From Thermoanaerobaculia bacterium (GTDB taxonomy: Bacteria > Acidobacteriota > Thermoanaerobaculia > Multivoradales > JAHEKO01), in the NCBI GenBank assembly GCA_945787635.1, contig CALZIK010000193.1:1-64000 (forward strand): a stretch of 64,000 nucleotides of DNA, given 5' to 3'. Shown one piece after another: positions 3,312 to 37,093 of the stretch. The notes below the pieces were generated by a model. It was not told the DNA's origin, searched no databases, and saw only the letters and a program-made list of their open reading frames with translations. Made by a program: the position numbers and the translations under genes. Numbering within the stretch: position 1 is the first letter of the stretch; the number at the start of each line of letters is the position of its first letter.

Positions 3312-5084
3312 CTACCGGGTGCTCACTGTCGCTCGTGCCTCGCGCCGCGAGAGGTCTCGGATCTTGAGACCGAGCGCGATCAGGGTCGCGACGATAGCGA
3401 TCAGGGACAGCGCCAGCCAGCGTCGCCGAGCCTGAATCTCCTCCTGAGCCTCAAACCCCAGCGCGATCGCGGCTCTCGCGTGCTCGAGACCTCGGGCATG
3501 CGTTTCGAGAAAGCCGCTGCCTTCGGCCGCGGTGAAGCCGTGCACCTGAACCTCGAGTCCGATCTCGGCATCGACGGCCTGATCCACTTCCAATTGCGCG
3601 TCCCGGACCTCAACGCCGCCGCGATGCGCTCGCAGGACGACTCGTTCGGCACTGCCAATGAGACTGGTGAGCTCGCTCATGCGCGTCAGCAGATCGATGC
3701 CGGTGACCGCTCCCGGTGTCGAATCGCTGACCATCGCGCCGGTGACGTGGCAGCTGTTGCAGCGCGTAATCGGCGTCCGCACCTCCTCACCGGAGGTCGG
3801 ATCCGTATGGGTGTAGTAGGTCTTGCCGATCCGGAACTTCTGGAACAAGTTGCTGAACTCGGGCCGCATCAAGGGAAGGCCTGCTTCGTCGATCTCGCCC
3901 GATACCGAATGCTGGCTCAAGTCGCGTGCCTGGTCCACCAGCCAATCGAACCGAGTGCTGCCTTCGAGGCCCTCCGCGGTCGCCTCGGCGAAGAGGCGTT
4001 CGAGAACCTCCGAGTAGTTGCGCATCGAGGCGACAGGCTCCGACATCTCGTCGGCGACGCCGGCCGAACCTTCGTGACAGAACGCGCACGGCGTTTCCGG
4101 CAGCTGGCCGAACATGGCGACCGTGGGGCGCACGGTGCCATGATTGTTGTGGCACGACGTGCACTCACCGAAGTGCCGTATGCCGGTGACCCAGACCTGC
4201 GGCTCGGGCGGCTCGTGACAGGCGGGGCAGCCCTCGTCCCCGGCGTCGACCAAGTACTCATTATGCTCCTCGAAGCCGCTGTGCTTCGGGCTGGCGCGGA
4301 AGAGCTCGGCCTCGCGGCCGTGACATTGCCCACAGACAAAGGTGACCGAGTCCAGGCCGGGCGGGCTGGCGCCGTGGTTGCCATGGCAGTCGTTGCAGGT
4401 CGGAGCGGAAAGGTCGTCTCGATCGAACATCGCCGCGGCGTGGACGCTGCGCTGCCAGCGCGCGTGCTGATCGACCGGCAGCGGCCTGCCATCGGACAGG
4501 GTGTAGCCGGCCATCTTCTCGGCATCGGAGTGGCAGGTGGCACAGGTATCGGCGACGTTGGTGGGGTAGACCCTCGATTCGGGATCACCGATGCGGCGCA
4601 TTCCGTGCACACCATGGCAGCCGACACAGGTTGCGACGTTGGCGTCGCCCGCGGCCAGCGCGACACCGTGGTGACTGGTGGCATACTCGCGTTCCTGGTC
4701 GACTCGAGCGTCCGGGCGGAAGCGCCGCATGTAGGACGGGCTGGAATGGCAAGAGCCACAGAAGCCGGGGATCTCGGCTCGCTCGGGCACCCCCAGATAC
4801 GGATTGGGATTAAAGCCCTCGTCCTTGGCGGCGAACATGTCGTCGGCGACCGACAGCGCTGGGTTGCCGCCGTGGCAGTCGTGGCACGAGAGGCCGACCT
4901 CGGCGTGAACGTCGGCACGAAGGTACTCCAAGATCGCCAGGTCCTCGGCTTCGAACAAATCCGTGTCGCCATGGCAGGTCGTACACGAGGTAGGACGTAG
5001 CTCTACGCCTTGCGCAGGTGCTCCGGCGTAGACAAGACCTACGACCAGCAGCGTCTGCCACTTCTTCGTTGCAGCGCGAGTCAT
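3312..5084 (-). CDS. 11-heme c-type cytochrome with C-terminal membrane anchor
   Basis: A 590-residue secreted multiheme cytochrome. It begins with a signal peptide (residues 1-26) and carries eleven CxxCH motifs: CTTCH, CHDCH, CGSCH, CVGCH, CATCH, CNDCH, CGQCH, CPACH, CTSCH, CAFCH and CNSCH. Several are followed by His-Gly or Asn-His as in doubled-CxxCH proteins. After the last heme comes a heme-free, helical region of about 150 residues, then a hydrophobic anchor ([18 protein letters not shown]) and a basic tail, so the heme domain should face the periplasm. Its ATG overlaps the cytochrome b stop by four bases (ATGA), which predicts coupled translation and a stable complex with cytochrome b. 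It occupies the place that cytochrome c1 or f takes in classical complexes. A 230-base gap, including the uncertain start of the octaheme gene, follows. Confidence 0.88.
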
Positions 5085-6253
5085 GACTCAGACTCCGCCT
5101 TGACTCGCTGGGTGCCCCAGCGCAGAACGTAGACCAAGCCCACCGTGGCCAGCACCACCCAAACCGGTACCCAAGAGCGGTAGCCCCAAGCGGTCATGCC
5201 CACCATGTAGGCCAGCGCGACGACACCGATCACCGTGAACACAGGACTCCGCCCGGTGCGCTCGACGCCCTTGTCGATAAACGGCACCAACACCAGCAAC
5301 AGACCTCCCAGGGAAAAGAGCAGAATCGGGATCGCTTCGTATTCCACCCCGAAAATCTCGCCGCCCGGAACCAGCTTCAAGGTCTCGAACATGAACACGA
5401 AATACCATTCGGGTCGGATGTCCTTGTAGGCGGGTGCAAAGGGATCGGCTTTTTCACCCAGCTCCCAAGGGAACAGAGCCGCCAACGCGACCAGAACCCC
5501 TAGCGCCAGAAGCCAACCAAAGAGATCGCGCAAGGCGAAGTTCGGGAAGAATTTCATCGGCCGCCGTCTCTCGGCTTCTTCAGCGGCTCGCGGCGGCACG
5601 CTCATGCCCTGGATCTGGACCAGTAGAAGATGCACGACCAGCAGGACTGTGAGAAACGCCGGCAGGATGGCGACGTGCCAGCCGTAGAATCGCGACAGCG
5701 TCCCACCCGTGACTCTGTCCCCCCCGCGCAGAAAACGTAACGTCCACTCCCCGACAACCGGCAGGACGCCGGCGATGTCAGTGCCCACCTTGGTGGCAAA
5801 GAACGCCAGCTTGTTCCAGGGCAGGAGATAGCCGGAAAAGCCGAACGCCAGGGCCAGGAAAAGCAGGGCACAGCCGGTGATCCAGGTGATCTCGCGCGGC
5901 TTGCGATAACCCTTGGAAAAATAGACAGTCACCAGATGAAGAAAAGCGAAAAAGACCATCAGGTTGGCGGACCAGGAATGAAGCGAGCGGATCAGCCAGC
6001 CGAACGGCACGACCGTCATGATGAACTCGACCGACTCGAAGGCCTCGGCGGCCGACGGCCGGTAGTACAGCATCAGCATGATGCCGGTCAGAAGCTGAAC
6101 GATCAGGAAAAACAAGGTCATGCCACCGAAGTAGTAGATGACCGAGTAACGATGCAAGGGCACTGTCTTGTGCGACGCAAACTCCGTCGCCTTCGAAACC
6201 GGCACCCGGTTCTCGATCCATTCGCTGGCTGTGCGGAAGAGTCCAAGCATCAA
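5081..6253 (-). CDS. Cytochrome b (b6-type heme spacing, fused to C-terminal domain)
   Basis: A 390-residue diheme cytochrome b, the quinol-oxidising core of a Rieske/cytochrome b complex. The two helix pairs of heme ligands are visible: H92/H106 (13 residues between) and H193/H208 (14 between), the second spacing being typical of cytochrome b6. The Qo-site motif is PEWY at 281-284, within a C-terminal half that corresponds to b6f subunit IV, here fused into one chain. Eight or so transmembrane segments are evident. The start lies directly after the Rieske stop and the stop overlaps the start of the 11-heme cytochrome, so the three are expected to form one complex. Confidence 0.93.
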
Positions 6254-6739
6254 TCAGGTCCTCGACACCACAATCTGCTCGGGTTGACCGACAGCCTTGA
6301 CGACGAGGTCGACCTTGAAAGCTTCGAGTGGTCTGGGCGGTGGACCGGCCACCACTTGGCCGTTCAGATTGTATTCGCCGTTGTGACAGTTGCACCAGAT
6401 CCGCTTCTTGTCCCTGTGATACTCGACGATGCAGTCGAGATGCGTGCAGGTGGCCGCGAAGGCGCGAAAGTCGCCCTCACCGCTGCGGACCAGAATCACG
6501 GGATCAGCGCCGAAACGAAGAATCTTGTAGCCCTTGTCGAGCAGCTCGGGATCGTTGGTGGCGCCCGCCTCGACCTGATTCATCGAGGCTTCGGGAATCT
6601 CGGGCGGGCTCACGAACCGCAGTACCGGGTAGGCCACCGAAGCGAACATCGCGCCGACCGAGGTGCCCAGAAACCAGTTGATGAAGCCTCTGCGTCCCGG
6701 ATCGGGAGGCCCGCTCAAACGCTCTGCGCTGTCCGCCAT
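6254..6739 (-). CDS. Rieske [2Fe-2S] protein
   Basis: A 161-residue Rieske subunit. The start at 6739 is preceded by a GAGGG-type ribosome site and puts the Tat-like signal anchor, GRRGFINWFLGTS, at residues 15-27, as usual for this family; the longer open frame upstream adds only non-homologous sequence. Cluster-binding box 1 is CTHLDC (98-103) and box 2 is CNCHNGEY (116-123): C98, H100, C116 and H119 bind the cluster, while C103 and C118 can form the disulfide. Box 2 has Asn in place of the usual Pro and Asn-Gly for Gly-Ser, so the midpoint potential may be low, as in menaquinol-oxidising complexes (inference). It is the first gene of the operon. Confidence 0.93.
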   Translation of the reverse strand: MADSAERLSGPPDPGRRGFINWFLGTSVGAMFASVAYPVLRFVSPPEIPEASMNQVEAGATNDPELLDKGYKILRFGADPVILVRSGEGDFRAFAATCTHLDCIVEYHRDKKRIWCNCHNGEYNLNGQVVAGPPPRPLEAFKVDLVVKAVGQPEQIVVSRT

Positions 6740-6875
6740 TGGTTCTTGCCCTCTTTGTTTGCCGATGCTGTCAACACCTCGAGGCACTGTGGAGGCCGAT
6801 GCCCGCTGCATTGTCCGGGAAGCCCGGGTGCGCGGCACCACCCGAAGGGGTGGCAAGTGCTCTTGCTACTCTCTC

Positions 6876-6881
6876 ATTATA
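6876..6881 (-). promoter_or_regulatory. Candidate -10 box (TATAAT) for the Rieske/cytochrome operon
   Basis: On the minus strand the sequence reads TATAAT, a perfect -10 hexamer, about 137 bases upstream of the Rieske start. No good -35 hexamer is present 16-18 bases upstream (the best is TTCGAC), so an activator or an alternative promoter may be involved. Confidence 0.35.
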
Positions 6882-7018
6882 CTTTCCGCCACTCTCCGTC
6901 GAAGAGTCCAGAGAGCTGATCATGCCAGGATCCCCGTTATGCCGTGGCTGCCGGATAGTGAACTTGGCGCGGGCAGCGGAACGTGAAGGCAATACCCCGC
7001 TGGGTGGGTCATTTCACT

Positions 7019-7042
7019 ATTCGAACGGATAGGAGCTCGAAT
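7019..7042. promoter_or_regulatory. Inverted repeat upstream of the sigma-54-like promoter
   Basis: ATTCGA and TCGAAT flank a 12-base spacer, 20 bases upstream of the -24 element. The symmetry and position would suit a regulator-binding site, though enhancer sites for sigma-54 are usually further upstream. No consensus is recognised. Confidence 0.3.
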
Positions 7043-7061
7043 CGGAGTTTGTCGATACCAT

Positions 7062-7077
7062 TGGCACAAGTTTGGCA
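7062..7077 (+). promoter_or_regulatory. Sigma-54-type -24/-12 promoter
   Basis: The sequence TGGCACAAGTTTGGCA has the invariant GG (7063-7064) and GC (7075-7076) separated by exactly ten bases, with a full TGGCAC at -24. Compared with the TGGCACG-N4-TTGCA consensus it differs at two positions. Transcription would start near 7088, giving a leader of about 40 bases with a GAGAGGAGAAG ribosome site before the GTG start of the c554-like cytochrome at 7129. Confidence 0.6.
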
Positions 7078-7128
7078 TCTGCAAGCTTAGGCGCCTATCG
7101 TGCCCACCATGATCGAGAGGAGAAGAAA

Positions 7129-7725
7129 GTGAAATATCGAATCGCACTGCTTGGAGCCCTTCCCGCGGTTCTCGTGTTCGGAACCTTCCTGGCACTGATG
7201 ACGGCGCCCGCGACCGCGGAGGACTTTGCGTACATCGGCTCGAAGAACTGCAAGAAGTGCCACCTGAAGGAATACAAATCCTGGGAGGCCACGACCATGG
7301 CCACGACGTTCGACGCGCTCATGCCCGGAGAACGGAGCGAAGCCAAGCTGACGGCCGGTCTCGACCCGAACGTCGACTACACGAAGGACGAGGCCTGCGT
7401 GAAGTGTCACGTTACGGGCTACGGCATGACCGGCGGTTTCGTTGACATCGAGACCACGCCGGAGCTGGCGAATGTGGGCTGCGAAACCTGCCACGGCCCA
7501 GGCGGAACCTACGTCGCCGACGAGCTCATGAGCCTCAAGAACAAGGAGTACAAGCTCGCCGACGTGGTCGCCGCAGGGATGGTGGAGAAGGTGGGCGAGG
7601 CTCAGTGCACCGGCTGCCACAATGACGAGAGTCCATTTGTCGCGGAAGGCTACGTTTTCGACTTCGAGGCCAACAAGGACAACGGCACCCACGAGAAGTA
7701 CCCGCTCAAGTACAGCCACGACTAG
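7129..7725 (+). CDS. Cytochrome c554-like tetraheme protein
   Basis: A 198-residue secreted cytochrome with four CxxCH motifs: CKKCH, CVKCH, CETCH and CTGCH. The sequence after the signal peptide, AEDFAYIGSKNCKKC, and the segment with CHVTGYG and CETCHGPGG match the cytochrome c554 superfamily of periplasmic electron carriers. The GTG at 7129 was chosen because GAGAGGAGAAG lies just upstream and it begins a normal signal peptide (VKYRIALLGALPAVLV, cleavage near TAPATA-E); earlier in-frame starts would add a charged, non-signal leader. Its promoter appears to be sigma-54 dependent. It is divergent from the Rieske/multiheme operon and may act as its soluble partner (inference). A GC-rich repeat-like segment begins at its stop codon. 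Confidence 0.88.
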   Translation: MKYRIALLGALPAVLVFGTFLALMTAPATAEDFAYIGSKNCKKCHLKEYKSWEATTMATTFDALMPGERSEAKLTAGLDPNVDYTKDEACVKCHVTGYGMTGGFVDIETTPELANVGCETCHGPGGTYVADELMSLKNKEYKLADVVAAGMVEKVGEAQCTGCHNDESPFVAEGYVFDFEANKDNGTHEKYPLKYSHD

Positions 7726-7863
7726 TGCGCGGTGAGGCGCCAGCTGCGCAAGGCGCGACGAGCGAGAGTATCGGGCTACACGCGAACGAGGAGCAACGCC
7801 GCCCAGCGGGATGCTGCGCCGCGCGAATGTAGAGAAACCTGCTGCGCGGTACGCTAGTGCGCG
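7722..7863. repeat. Possible small inserted element bounded by 10-base direct repeats
   Basis: CTAGTGCGCG occurs at 7722-7731, where it contains the TAG stop of the c554-like gene, and again at 7854-7863. The 122 bases between them are GC-rich, contain no open frame of note and no clear terminal inverted repeats. The arrangement resembles a non-autonomous element or dispersed intergenic repeat with a target duplication, but only one copy is visible in this window. Confidence 0.4.
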
Positions 7864-7899
7864 AGGGGTGGCCCGGGATTGGCGCCGGGCCGCTACTGC

Positions 7900-8721
7900 C
7901 TACGTCGAGTCCGTGACCGCGCTCTCGGCGGCGCCGTAGATCCCAAGCGAATCCGTGCCCTGGAGAAACGCCACGACGCTCAATCGGTCACGCCGCCAGC
8001 CGCTCTCGAGAGCGATCTCGAGGGAGGTGCCGGCTCCGACGGGGCGACCGGATCCGCCTGCTTTCTCGAGGTGCCGGACCACGCGATCGTTGCGAAGGGT
8101 CTTCGAGGCGTTCTCGCCACGCCCAACCGCCGTCACGAGATCGTTTTCGACGATCGCGACCCACAAGCCGAGACTCTCGGGCCCGACTTCGGATTCCCGA
8201 AGGTGCGTGCCTACCGCCACCACGAGCCGGTCGGCCACCAGCTCGGCGGACACCACCAGCTCGGCCCGCGCGGCCTCTGATCGGGCCCGCTCCAGCAACT
8301 TCGAGATCTCGGCCCGGTTCGAGCCGACGCCCTCCCAGCGACCGTTGACCACCATCTGCGGCGTGTAGACACGGTTGCCGCCGAAGGTTCTGGCGTAGCG
8401 ACGCTGCCGGTCGCTCCAGGCCGAGGAAGAGAAGGGATCGGTCCAACCGATGTAGTTCCAGTAGTCGACATGAAACGACAAGGCGACGATCTCGAGGTCC
8501 GTGCTCGAGGCGAGCTCCGAGAGGAATCGGTCCGCCGGCGGACAGCTCGAGCAGCCCTGCGAGGTAAAGAGCTCGATCACGACCGGACTCTTCGCGGCCT
8601 TTCCGCTGGAGTTCTCCCTCTCGGCAGCGCCAAATCCCGGCGTCAGGTTCGCCCCCGCAGTCATCACGAGAACGACGGCCAGGCCGACCGTCCAGGCCTG
8701 GCTCGAAAAGGCCCGGCTCAC
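7900..8721 (-). CDS. DUF1223 family thioredoxin-like secreted protein
   Basis: Hallmark DUF1223 motifs are visible: VIELFTSQGCSSCPPAD near the N-terminus with a CxxC pair, FHVDYWNYIGWTDPF, and VYTPQMVVNGR. The family has a thioredoxin-like fold with a probable redox-active CSSC, but its role is unknown. The start chosen here is GTG at 8721, giving 273 residues with a signal-like segment (WTVGLAVVLVMTAGANL). It overlaps the stop of a possible 32-codon gene as GTGA, which suggests translational coupling. The frame is also open to a GTG at 8829 (309 residues), but that adds a charged leader unlike a signal peptide. It is convergent with the c554-like gene. Confidence 0.8.
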   Translation of the reverse strand: MSRAFSSQAWTVGLAVVLVMTAGANLTPGFGAAERENSSGKAAKSPVVIELFTSQGCSSCPPADRFLSELASSTDLEIVALSFHVDYWNYIGWTDPFSSSAWSDRQRRYARTFGGNRVYTPQMVVNGRWEGVGSNRAEISKLLERARSEAARAELVVSAELVADRLVVAVGTHLRESEVGPESLGLWVAIVENDLVTAVGRGENASKTLRNDRVVRHLEKAGGSGRPVGAGTSLEIALESGWRRDRLSVVAFLQGTDSLGIYGAAESAVTDST

Positions 8722-33574: not shown

Positions 33575-36500
33575 CTAATCGCTGTCAGAATCCAAATCCG
33601 AGTCGGAATCGTCGTCGCCGGGAAAGTCACCGCTTTCGACGATCTCGACCCACTCCCGCATGACGCCGAGGCTGCAGCCGTGCTTGGTGTGGCCGTTGCC
33701 CAGATCCAGCGCGTCGATGATCTGCTCGCACGAGCAGCCACCGGTATCGGCGATGGTGAAAACGGTCTGGCTCGAATCCGAGTCAGAGTCCGAATCTGAG
33801 TCTGAATCCGAGTCATCGTCGATCGTGTCGAACACGAAGTCGTCATCCACCAGTGCGTAACGGTTCTTCTTGAGGCCCTTGGTCGGCACTCCCTCTGGAA
33901 TCACCGTACCCGAACACACGTCGATGTCATCGGTCACTCCATCCTGGTCGCTGTCCTTCACCAGGAACAGTACGAAGCCGTCGTGGTCGGAAGAGCGCAC
34001 GGCCGTGGTGCCGTCATCGAATAGAGCGTCCGGGGAATCGGCGTTCCCGCGCCCAAACTCGAAACCGCGAACGAACGGGTCCGTGGCTACCGAGGTCAAG
34101 GCATGATCGAGGGTCTGCGAGTTGCCCTCGAAGTTGAACGAATACCGCTCTTCGGCGGGAATGCCCAGGACCTGGTTGGTCAGGTCGGGATCGACCAGAT
34201 CGTTGCAAGGCTCGGAGTCGCAAACCAGATTGTCAGCCGGGTCGAAGACGCCGCGGATGTGCCCGACGGCGTCGACGTAGCTGTCGCTGAACTCGAAGGC
34301 GTTGAAGTCGCCGACGATCACCAGGGGCGCATCAGAATCCGTCTGGAGCTCGCTCGCCTTGGCGGCGATCGACTCGGCCTGAAGTAGCCGCTTCAGGCGA
34401 ACCCGCTCGCCGTCGTCCGGATCGTCGATGTTGCCAAGCGACCGGTTGTGAACGACCATGACGCGTACCGGCGAAGCGCCGCCGCTGGCCGTGCAGCTGC
34501 CTTCGAGCAGGAGCGGTGGGCGATCGTGAAGCACATTGAGGTCTCCAGTCACGGGGTTGACGAACGTGGCCATGGGCTCGACCTGGGCAACGGAATCGAC
34601 CTGGATGGTGTCGCGCACCAGAAAACCGACGTCGATCGTGCCTTGATCGTTGCCTTCGATGAGGTACGGGACGTAGATGACCGTCGAATCGACGGCCGCA
34701 ATGTCCGCGGCGAGAGCAGCCAGCACGCTCTCCTTCTCGACTTCCTGCACCGCCAGGATGTCCGGGGCGTCCAGAACGTCGAGAATGTACAGCACCAACT
34801 TCGCACGTCGGCTCAGGTACTGCGCCGTCGAAACCACCGTGTCGTTTCGCGTCTGACCCAGGAAGTTGGTGTCCGAAGGATCGTTCACGTCATCGAACAG
34901 CCGGAACATATTGAGCGAGCCGACCGTGAACTCACCGAAGTCGCGAAGACGCACTCCGATCGGCAGCACCGGTTCCGGGCCAAGCACCAGGCTTGTCGGC
35001 AGGATCTGATAGTCGCCGAACGTGAAAAAGAGCGGCCCTTCGGCCGAGATCGTCTGTTCGACGAAGATATCGGCGTCGGGCAGACCCAGCCCGTCCGGGT
35101 CGATCTCGAAAACTTCGGGATTGCCGTCCCACACCGGAAACGGCGCCACGCCCGGAAACTCGATCCCGGGCTCGCGGAAGGTGCGCTCGGTGCCGGCCAC
35201 GACGGCGGTCTCGCCGAACCGGTTGGTCGGTCCCGTCGCGATGCCGTCGAAGCTCACCAGCATCCCCTCGAACCGTTCCAGATCGGGAATCGGACTCGGC
35301 GCCGGGGACGGGGTCGTGGCGTCGAAGACCACGACCGCGGGCAAGGTGTTGCCGGCGCTGCCGATCGACAGCACGCGCAGGTCGCCCAGCTCGGTCATGC
35401 CGAAGAACTCCTGCACCTGGGCCACCACGTCGACCTGATCGCCTAGCGCGACCGCCGGCGCGCCGCCGGTGAAGACGAAGATTCCGTCTGAAGTCAGGCC
35501 GTCACCATCGGAGCGGACCTCGGGTGTCTGCATGAAGAAACCGTTGGTATCGAGCGCGGTGACCGTGTTGTCGCTGGTCGCCACGTAGAGATCCTCCAGA
35601 GGCGAGGCGAGCCCTGCCCCCTGGATCTCGAAGATCTCGGCGTCGACGACGTTGCTGGCTCCAGGTGTAGGAGCCTGCTGCACGTAGCTCGTGGTCACGA
35701 GCTGGGTGCCGCCATTGGGAACGCGGGCGTTCGCGTGGAAGTCCTTGTCGTCATTGCCGTCTTCGTTCTGCTGTGGCTGACCTGGCGTCAAGACGTCGAT
35801 CAAACCACTGTCGTCGCCGTCGTTGGTGTCATAGACCAGGGCATCCACGAGACCGCTGCCGCTGACCGGCGTGTCATTGGGGTAGTCCGCTGCGTCACCG
35901 ACATGGACGGCGACGGCGTCGGCGCCGTTCTGGAGGCCATTGCCGGGGAAGACAATCGACGGCGTCGGTACCACGGCGGCATTGCCGAGGAGAAAGTAGC
36001 CGTCCGCATCGGTCGAAAAGCCATCCAGGTCGAACGCCTCATAGGAGGCGTCATCGCTGCCGTTGTAGAAAACCACGACCAGTCCGTCGAGGGGCGTGCT
36101 ACCGACGCCACCGTCGTAGAGCTCGACGAACTCGAGGGCATCCGAACCCGCGGTGTCGGCATCCACCTCGTTGATGACAATCGGTGAGTCGATCGCGGTC
36201 GAGAAGCTGAAGACGACGTCGCCTGCCATGTTGTCGGGCGGGTCGTCGGCATCGGCATCGCTCACCTCGGCGGCAAAGATAGTCACCGTGCACTCCTCGC
36301 CGTTGACGAAATCGGTGTCGGGATCCAGCGTGTAGGCCTGGGGACCTCCGGCGGTCGCCGCCGTGTGCGCGCCACTGATGGTGCAACTGACATCGAACCA
36401 GGCGGCGCCCAGGGTCACGTCCTCACTGAAGATGACCTCGATGTCGGTGTCGAGGGCGATGCCTCCGCTGTTGTCGGCCGGGTTCGTGCTGACCACGGTC

Positions 36501-37093
36501 GGCGCGGCCTCGGAAGAAGCGCAACTGGTGAAGGTCTGCCCCGTATTGATGGTGTCGAACGTGTTCGGGCTGCTGCCCTGCCAGGTGAAGTCGGCGGCAG
36601 TGGAACCGATCCCGGAGAGCTGCAGGGAGTCCCCGACCGCGGAGCCCGAAGCCTCGGAAACCCCGATATCGGTACTTCCCATGCCGTCGGCAGGACCGCC
36701 GACCGCTACGAAGTTACCCTCGTAGCTCAAGAACTGAATCACCGAGCTACCTGGATCGATCAGGGCGATTCCGTCGGGAGAGCCGTTCTGGATTCCCGCC
36801 TGGAAGAAGGCGAGAGTTCCGCAGCCCGACTGTTGATTGGGCAGCGTGCCGGCGAGATTGATCGTATTGTAGACCGCTCCGCCGTTGCCGTTATAGAGCA
36901 CCAGGCTCCAACCGGCCAGGTTGGTTCCGCCGGGGCCGGCGATCTCGATGGCTTCACCGGTGTCGCCGCCGGTGTTGTCGTAGTGGATCTCATTGATGAA
37001 CACCGCTTGCGCCGAGACCGTCGTAGCGGCAAACAAAAGACAAAGCACGACAGCGACAGCCAAAAAACCCTCTCTTCGATAAGTCCTCAACAC
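33575..37093 (-). CDS. Large secreted nuclease-like protein: lamin-tail, Ig-like and endonuclease/exonuclease/phosphatase domains
   Basis: A 1172-residue exported protein. A signal peptide (1-28, ending VSAQA) is followed by a lamin-tail-like domain (about 30-190: VFINEIHYDNTGGDTGEAIE), an SbsA-type Ig-like domain (about 195-300: PTVVSTNPADNSGGIALDTD), a second lamin-tail-like domain (about 305-480) and an EEP nuclease domain (about 740-1065) with DILAVQEVE, GDFNAFEFSDS and SSDHDGF, the metal and catalytic residues. The tail has a calcium-site-like DSDQDGVTDD, an Asp-Ser run, a Cys block (GGCSCEQIIDALDLGNGH and HGCSLGVMREWV) and a second acidic Asp-Ser end. It resembles ExeM-like extracellular nucleases. 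Start is GTG at 37093 or TTG at 37090 after AGGAGG; the TTG has the better spacing. Confidence 0.85.
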   Translation of the reverse strand: MLRTYRREGFLAVAVVLCLLFAATTVSAQAVFINEIHYDNTGGDTGEAIEIAGPGGTNLAGWSLVLYNGNGGAVYNTINLAGTLPNQQSGCGTLAFFQAGIQNGSPDGIALIDPGSSVIQFLSYEGNFVAVGGPADGMGSTDIGVSEASGSAVGDSLQLSGIGSTAADFTWQGSSPNTFDTINTGQTFTSCASSEAAPTVVSTNPADNSGGIALDTDIEVIFSEDVTLGAAWFDVSCTISGAHTAATAGGPQAYTLDPDTDFVNGEECTVTIFAAEVSDADADDPPDNMAGDVVFSFSTAIDSPIVINEVDADTAGSDALEFVELYDGGVGSTPLDGLVVVFYNGSDDASYEAFDLDGFSTDADGYFLLGNAAVVPTPSIVFPGNGLQNGADAVAVHVGDAADYPNDTPVSGSGLVDALVYDTNDGDDSGLIDVLTPGQPQQNEDGNDDKDFHANARVPNGGTQLVTTSYVQQAPTPGASNVVDAEIFEIQGAGLASPLEDLYVATSDNTVTALDTNGFFMQTPEVRSDGDGLTSDGIFVFTGGAPAVALGDQVDVVAQVQEFFGMTELGDLRVLSIGSAGNTLPAVVVFDATTPSPAPSPIPDLERFEGMLVSFDGIATGPTNRFGETAVVAGTERTFREPGIEFPGVAPFPVWDGNPEVFEIDPDGLGLPDADIFVEQTISAEGPLFFTFGDYQILPTSLVLGPEPVLPIGVRLRDFGEFTVGSLNMFRLFDDVNDPSDTNFLGQTRNDTVVSTAQYLSRRAKLVLYILDVLDAPDILAVQEVEKESVLAALAADIAAVDSTVIYVPYLIEGNDQGTIDVGFLVRDTIQVDSVAQVEPMATFVNPVTGDLNVLHDRPPLLLEGSCTASGGASPVRVMVVHNRSLGNIDDPDDGERVRLKRLLQAESIAAKASELQTDSDAPLVIVGDFNAFEFSDSYVDAVGHIRGVFDPADNLVCDSEPCNDLVDPDLTNQVLGIPAEERYSFNFEGNSQTLDHALTSVATDPFVRGFEFGRGNADSPDALFDDGTTAVRSSDHDGFVLFLVKDSDQDGVTDDIDVCSGTVIPEGVPTKGLKKNRYALVDDDFVFDTIDDDSDSDSDSDSDSDSSQTVFTIADTGGCSCEQIIDALDLGNGHTKHGCSLGVMREWVEIVESGDFPGDDDSDSDLDSDSD

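Follow-up and report, generated by a model that had tools for sequence, protein, structure and literature searches.

The window, a stretch of 64,000 nucleotides (contig CALZIK010000193.1, positions 1 to 64,000) from a Thermoanaerobaculia bacterium, encodes on its minus strand a secreted nuclease-like protein ending in a module with four cysteines. The features are as follows.

33575..37093 (-): secreted LTD/Big_5/ExeM-type nuclease-like protein, 1172 aa, the module carrier (ORF, Pfam, NCBIfam)
37004..37093 (-): likely Sec signal peptide MLRTYRREGFLAVAVVLCLLFAATTVSAQA (translation, by eye)
36827..37012 (-): lamin tail domain (LTD), top-scoring stretch (Pfam, residues 28-89)
36197..36511 (-): Big_5 (bacterial Ig-like) domain (Pfam, residues 195-299)
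34088..34795 (-): endonuclease/exonuclease/phosphatase domain (Pfam, residues 767-1002)
33635..33955 (-): portable module, TSP3-type calcium loop plus four-Cys domain (profile match to model positions 1-97, alignments, AF2 pLDDT 82.6)
33905..33955 (-): TSP3-type calcium loop DSDQDGVTDDIDVC and the residues after it (TSP_3 13.6 bits, cut-off 25; Asp columns)
33914..33916 (-): Cys 1 (C1) of the module (sequence, profile column 14)
33770..33820 (-): Asp-Ser run inserted within the module (translation, alignment, AF2 model)
33734..33736 (-): Cys 2 (C2), first of CSC, predicted partner of C1 (sequence, profile)
33728..33730 (-): Cys 3 (C3), second of CSC, predicted partner of C4 (sequence, profile)
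33674..33676 (-): Cys 4 (C4), in GCS (sequence, profile)
33578..33646 (-): acidic Asp-Ser tail past the module, up to the stop (translation)

Pfam LTD, Big_5 and Exo_endo_phos all score over their cut-offs in the 1172-aa protein, which in Pfam terms has the LTD and EEP nuclease domain that characterize ExeM/NucH. NCBIfam ExeM_NucH_DNase (NF033681) gives the whole protein 113 bits over two stretches, below the curated cut-off of 300, and the protein is similar to the ExeM/NucH nucleases though under that cut-off. The Cys-containing C-terminal residues quoted by an earlier, sequence-only reading are the actual end of this ORF, where the order is DSDQDGVTDDIDVC, GTVIPEGVPTKGLKKNRYAL, the Ser-Asp run, GGCSCEQIIDALDLGNGH, HGCSLGVMREWV, the acidic tail and the stop. 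The module consists of one TSP3 calcium loop and about 80 more residues, with four cysteines in all. The Asp-Ser run is variable or missing in relatives and is the least confident stretch of the AlphaFold2 model, and the acidic tail is missing from most relatives. Models of the MSCRAMM Clf/Sdr Ser-Asp stalks match the run weakly; this likeness is one of low complexity only, and no LPXTG anchor was seen in the window protein, nor any hydrophobic helix past its module.

Family searches and predicted fold

The DxDxDGxxDxxDxC calcium-loop pattern of the TSP3 repeat (PF02412) and the bacterial TSP3 (PF18884) is also present in the first ~20 residues of the module, whereas the next ~80 residues with CSC...GC lie outside TSP3. 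Against TSP_3 (PF02412) the window module alone scored 13.6 bits, under the gathering cut-off of 25, and 20 of 26 members matched at E<=10 (best member E 3.6e-6). Scans of 26 members found no Pfam or NCBIfam model over the CSC...GC part; families that recurred among the members were TSP3-type or other low-scoring ones, and the window member had its matches at the Asp-Ser run and the TSP3 loop. AlphaFold2 predicted a compact fold with confidence, with two short strands and three helices (for the window copy pLDDT 82.6 and pTM 0.72, the Asp-Ser insert and the extreme end being weakest; for the Woeseiaceae copy L038 pLDDT 95.0 and pTM 0.86). Foldseek searches of both models against the PDB gave no match at E<=0.001, structural re-alignment to 38 and 15 chains gave none with Z>=2, BFVD gave no match for the window model, and by sequence the TSP3 part alone matched a solved protein (OmpA-family 5wtl). 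The letters CSCEQI, CSCEQII and GCSCEQ were not found in the non-subscription literature searched, and no description of the module was recognised in broader searches judged from listings. What is new here is a well-bounded domain that lacks annotation: neither Pfam nor NCBIfam models the CSC...GC part, the PDB gave no match, the literature searched has no record of its motif, and its fold is predicted confidently with no close solved structure. One family model would provide labels for the ends of many 'hypothetical' secreted proteins.

Recurrence, partners and likely transfer of the module

In the own genome, a degenerate DNA pattern of the CSCEQI core matched one additional site and its reversed control matched none; the additional site closes a protein of 524 residues that has a GDSL/AlgX-like domain. 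In other genomes, profile matches went down to E = 1.9e-46. A two-sequence profile matched 24 of 98 related genomes, own genome counted (G026 with only the TSP3 part at a contig end), and named genomes scanned with an alignment of 26 rows gave 87 confirmed relatives among 105 candidates, with 79 loci kept. According to record titles and NCBI ranks, the carriers belong to eight bacterial phyla and one archaeal MAG (groups: Acidobacteriota, Pseudomonadota, Myxococcota, Bacteroidota, Rhodothermota, Chloroflexota, Tectomicrobia, Peregrinibacteria, and a Pacearchaeota MAG). The distribution is patchy: the module was present in 4/297 genomes of the own phylum sample, 1/99 of one family of that phylum, 14/235 of the phylum of Sorangium, 3/247 of the phylum of Neolewinella and 8/239 of the phylum of a Peribacteraceae MAG, and 5/274 of the class of Alteromonas (Gammaproteobacteria) matched, two full-length and three with the TSP3 part only. 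Carriers have up to six copies (Granulosicoccus). The Pacearchaeota genome has two, on two contigs, and CARDB was the sole informative Pfam match among the neighbours of one of them; contamination stands as a formal alternative source for these archaeal copies. By eye, the Pacearchaeota locus L109 (4341-5687) and the Patescibacteria locus L214 have in common an additional domain past the module, which suggests an exchange between the two groups. Viral contigs, plasmids and phages gave no module relatives in a few queries of modest sensitivity, and we rejected carriage of the module by any of them.

Clustering of the carriers by their N-terminal parts placed 45 in one nuclease group, 15 in a second one, TSP3-rich proteins of Polyangium and Granulosicoccus among them, and the others in small groups or as singletons. 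The Pfam partners, on different carriers, were LTD with nuclease, GDSL/AlgX, VWA, GH16 with CBM6/35, PKD, DUF7933/DUF11, DUF7507, DUF1559, the MopE copper motif, BNR with P-domain, laminin-G and a PD40 propeller, and prepilin-like proteins were also among the carriers. The earlier proposal that CSCEQI-type tails recur on unrelated secreted proteins is therefore borne out, by a different kind of protein within the own genome and by other genomes, and the N-terminal domains joined are of unrelated kinds, not those of orthologues of one protein.

In a tree of 123 modules over 96 columns (49 of the 120 inner branches open), in which modules were labelled nuclease-borne by an SDH[DE] motif upstream instead of a domain search, parsimony counted 14 changes between nuclease-borne and other-borne modules against a shuffled mean of ~40. 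Well-supported branches force only 2 of these changes, and we therefore consider repeated transfer of the module between protein kinds likely rather than proven.

We also observed that four loci of Peregrinibacteria (L107, L110, L111 and L112) encode proteins of ~1000 residues with a type IV prepilin-like start and the module at the end, and that in these modules a long insert separates Cys 3 from Cys 4.

Position in the chain and export routes

Among 128 distinct copies with the stop in view, the stop follows within 10 residues of the module in 101 and within 30 in 112; of the other 16 copies, seven have a T9SS tail, two a second module, four acidic tails and three other extensions after the module. 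This mostly C-terminal position would suit a signal for sorting or anchoring that a dedicated machine recognises, such as type II secretion or a sortase-like protease, as would the slot itself, which on the same nuclease of relatives is taken by IPTL-CTERM (PF18203) and on Shewanella ExeM by GlyGly-CTERM (PMC6085458). The GlyGly-CTERM/rhombosortase signal is, like the module, a C-terminal element on an ExeM-type nuclease (PMC6085458), but the module has no GG-hydrophobic helix-basic end and in its place a predicted folded four-Cys domain; IPTL-CTERM likewise consists of a short motif, then a hydrophobic helix and a basic end, and the module has none of the three. Indeed, neither these two arrangements nor MYXO-CTERM (motif, hydrophobic helix, basic end) was recognised in the module, and the 101 copies that end within 10 residues leave no room for a helix and basic end. 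The T9SS type A sorting domain (PF18962) is C-terminal, portable and extracellular as the module is, yet it is a separate element: its matches lie downstream of the module in the same proteins, none inside it, and a T9SS tail follows the module in 7/7 Bacteroidota/Rhodothermota copies.

Several kinds of N-terminal export signal were found among the carriers, which also include Peregrinibacteria and an archaeal MAG. Lipobox-like starts were present in ten Polyangium ORFs (of 14 regex matches overall, the remaining four of which look incidental), prepilin-like starts in 4/4 peregrinibacterial ORFs from the named-genome scan, and an export-like N-terminus, by a crude hydrophobicity rule, in 78 of the 96 ORFs whose upstream stop was visible. 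The T9SS tails and the varied N-termini make a single-pathway sorting signal unlikely, and so a signal for one export machine. The TIGR02517 secretin (GspD) had some match in 98/98 genomes and exceeded its cut-off in G005 alone, one of the 24 module-bearing genomes, and the module itself is patchy among these relatives (24/98). We rejected type II secretion as the module's partner in so far as a canonical GspD is not needed, the association test being otherwise almost powerless. Of the anchoring, sorting or calcium-dependent folding module proposed by the sequence-only reading, portability held and a calcium-dependent fold is plausible from the conserved Asp columns (130-131 of 132 copies) and the confident model, while a sorting or anchoring role is unsupported in view of the T9SS tails, the mixture of lipobox-like, prepilin-like and Sec-type carriers and the single GspD above the cut-off; we consider such a signal very improbable.

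The same nuclease also ends in other ways. Its domain is present in 72/98 genomes (own genome counted), and among the 30 nuclease loci retrieved (L175-L204) the end is the module in 14, a TSP3 array with an IPTL-type end in four (L178, L179, L180, L182; Pfam IPTL-CTERM over cut-off in two), an F[AS]D[DG]FE-type tail in four, a short acidic tail in three and another short end in two, and three run off the locus. Shewanella ExeM ends in a GlyGly-CTERM arrangement and loses ~20% of its extracellular activity without the C-terminal membrane anchor (PMC6085458). The varied ends and this deletion indicate that such nucleases tolerate different ends, and the module is dispensable to them since orthologous nucleases in relatives are without it. 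The natural swap (module, IPTL-CTERM, short GFESGD-type tail or nothing) offers a ready comparison for the roles of C-terminal ends in secreted enzymes. In L188, L190, L192 and L193 the nuclease ends in a short F[AS]D[DG]FE[ST][GN]D...W motif, which may be another portable tail.

Predicted cysteine pairing and possible roles of the module

The alignments were A2 (26 of 28 regex matches, two partial ones left out; the 28 came from 30 loci, L003-L032), A3 (83 of 90 instances and the window copy) and A4 (A3 re-ordered, minus L097, the copy without Cys 1). A3 excludes L040 and L046 because of their long Ser-Asp inserts, L059 for its disrupted frame, L098 for divergence beyond Cys 4, L100 as partial and, since they took in an extra TSP3, one copy from each of L083 and L084.

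Of 132 distinct copies of near-full length, 130-131 have Asp at columns 1, 3, 5 and 12 (profile alignment), the TSP3 pattern DxDxDG...D..D.C being present in the module family; every copy has Gly 63, Cys 64 and Gly 83, and 131 have Thr 61. All four cysteines are present in 128 copies; the named-genome scan demanded T[AGR]GCSCEQ and was biased to four-Cys copies, and 42 of 45 copies from outside that scan also have four. Three of the 132 copies, in two lineages (the paralogues L146 and L148 of one own-phylum genome, and L214 of a Patescibacteria genome), lack exactly C3 and C4 and retain C1 and C2. This coupled loss in two lineages, against one copy lacking C1 alone, predicts a C3-C4 bridge and, by exclusion, a C1-C2 bridge. 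The latter copy (L019/L097) retains C2 and is a misfit with obligate C1-C2 pairing. The nearly invariant CSC-plus-Cys arrangement would also be expected of a redox- or metal-responsive switch, in which CSC and the last Cys bind metal or react with oxidants, but the joint replacement of C3 and C4 by Gly and Ile/Leu with C1 and C2 persisting points to a structural bridge more than to a metal site, and we give such a switch hardly any probability.

The best-supported statement is structural, that the module is an autonomous extracellular domain with a calcium loop and a predicted double disulfide, used as an end piece. For its role, we tentatively propose, with confidence somewhat short of even, that it caps the end of exported proteins and is locked by calcium and disulfides. 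The computations show the recurrence, the C-terminal position, the lack of an annotated family outside the TSP3 loop, the confident predicted fold and the coupled loss of cysteines; we infer that calcium is bound, that disulfides form and that the module caps the chain. The module would be a separately folding extracellular domain of ~100 residues, in which the single TSP3-type loop would bind calcium and be continued by a small unit of two strands and three helices, held by the disulfides C1-C2 and C3-C4. It would form only after export, in an oxidising, calcium-containing space, and would have been appended to many kinds of exported protein, mostly as the final element, where a rigid cap would finish the chain and shield it from unfolding and exoproteases. 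Counting for the cap are the unrelated partners in the own genome and elsewhere, the kept cysteines and Asp columns, the confident fold without a PDB match, the closeness to the stop, the lipobox-like, prepilin-like and Sec-type carriers and the position upstream of T9SS tails. Counting against it, one copy has lost C1 alone, an additional DxDxD-type motif lies within 40 residues upstream in only 49 of 136 distinct copies, so that there is often no TSP3 stalk to cap, the orthologous nucleases of relatives do without the module, and the partly conserved GxGHxKFGC loop is left unexplained by a pure stability cap.

In that loop K-[FYH]-G-C is widely kept, as would suit a contact or retention domain, namely a knob of lectin-like or matrix-binding type, exposed at the tip of surface and secreted proteins, that would hold them on polysaccharide, DNA or neighbour cells. 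Its partners often resemble adhesins or act on polymers (VWA, laminin-G, PKD, DUF11, GH16 with CBMs, nuclease), the peregrinibacterial carriers resemble very large prepilins whose far end is the module, and tandem copies exist (L088, L090). However, the loop residues vary apart from the Gly-Cys pair, and Foldseek against the PDB gave no likeness to a solved binding domain; we regard a contact domain as the main rival, somewhat less likely than the cap. More broadly, though we think it rather unlikely, the module may represent an undescribed extracellular domain family, possibly with a new small fold, that many bacterial phyla and DPANN archaea share and that provides surface contact in general, as an adhesive tip for proteins of any kind that has moved among nucleases, glycosidases, lipoproteins and pilus-like proteins.

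As a separate observation, three adjoining genes of Polyangium (L083, L084, L087; ~4000-8600) each encode TSP3 loops with the module at the end, and most starts in these gene trios are lipobox-like.
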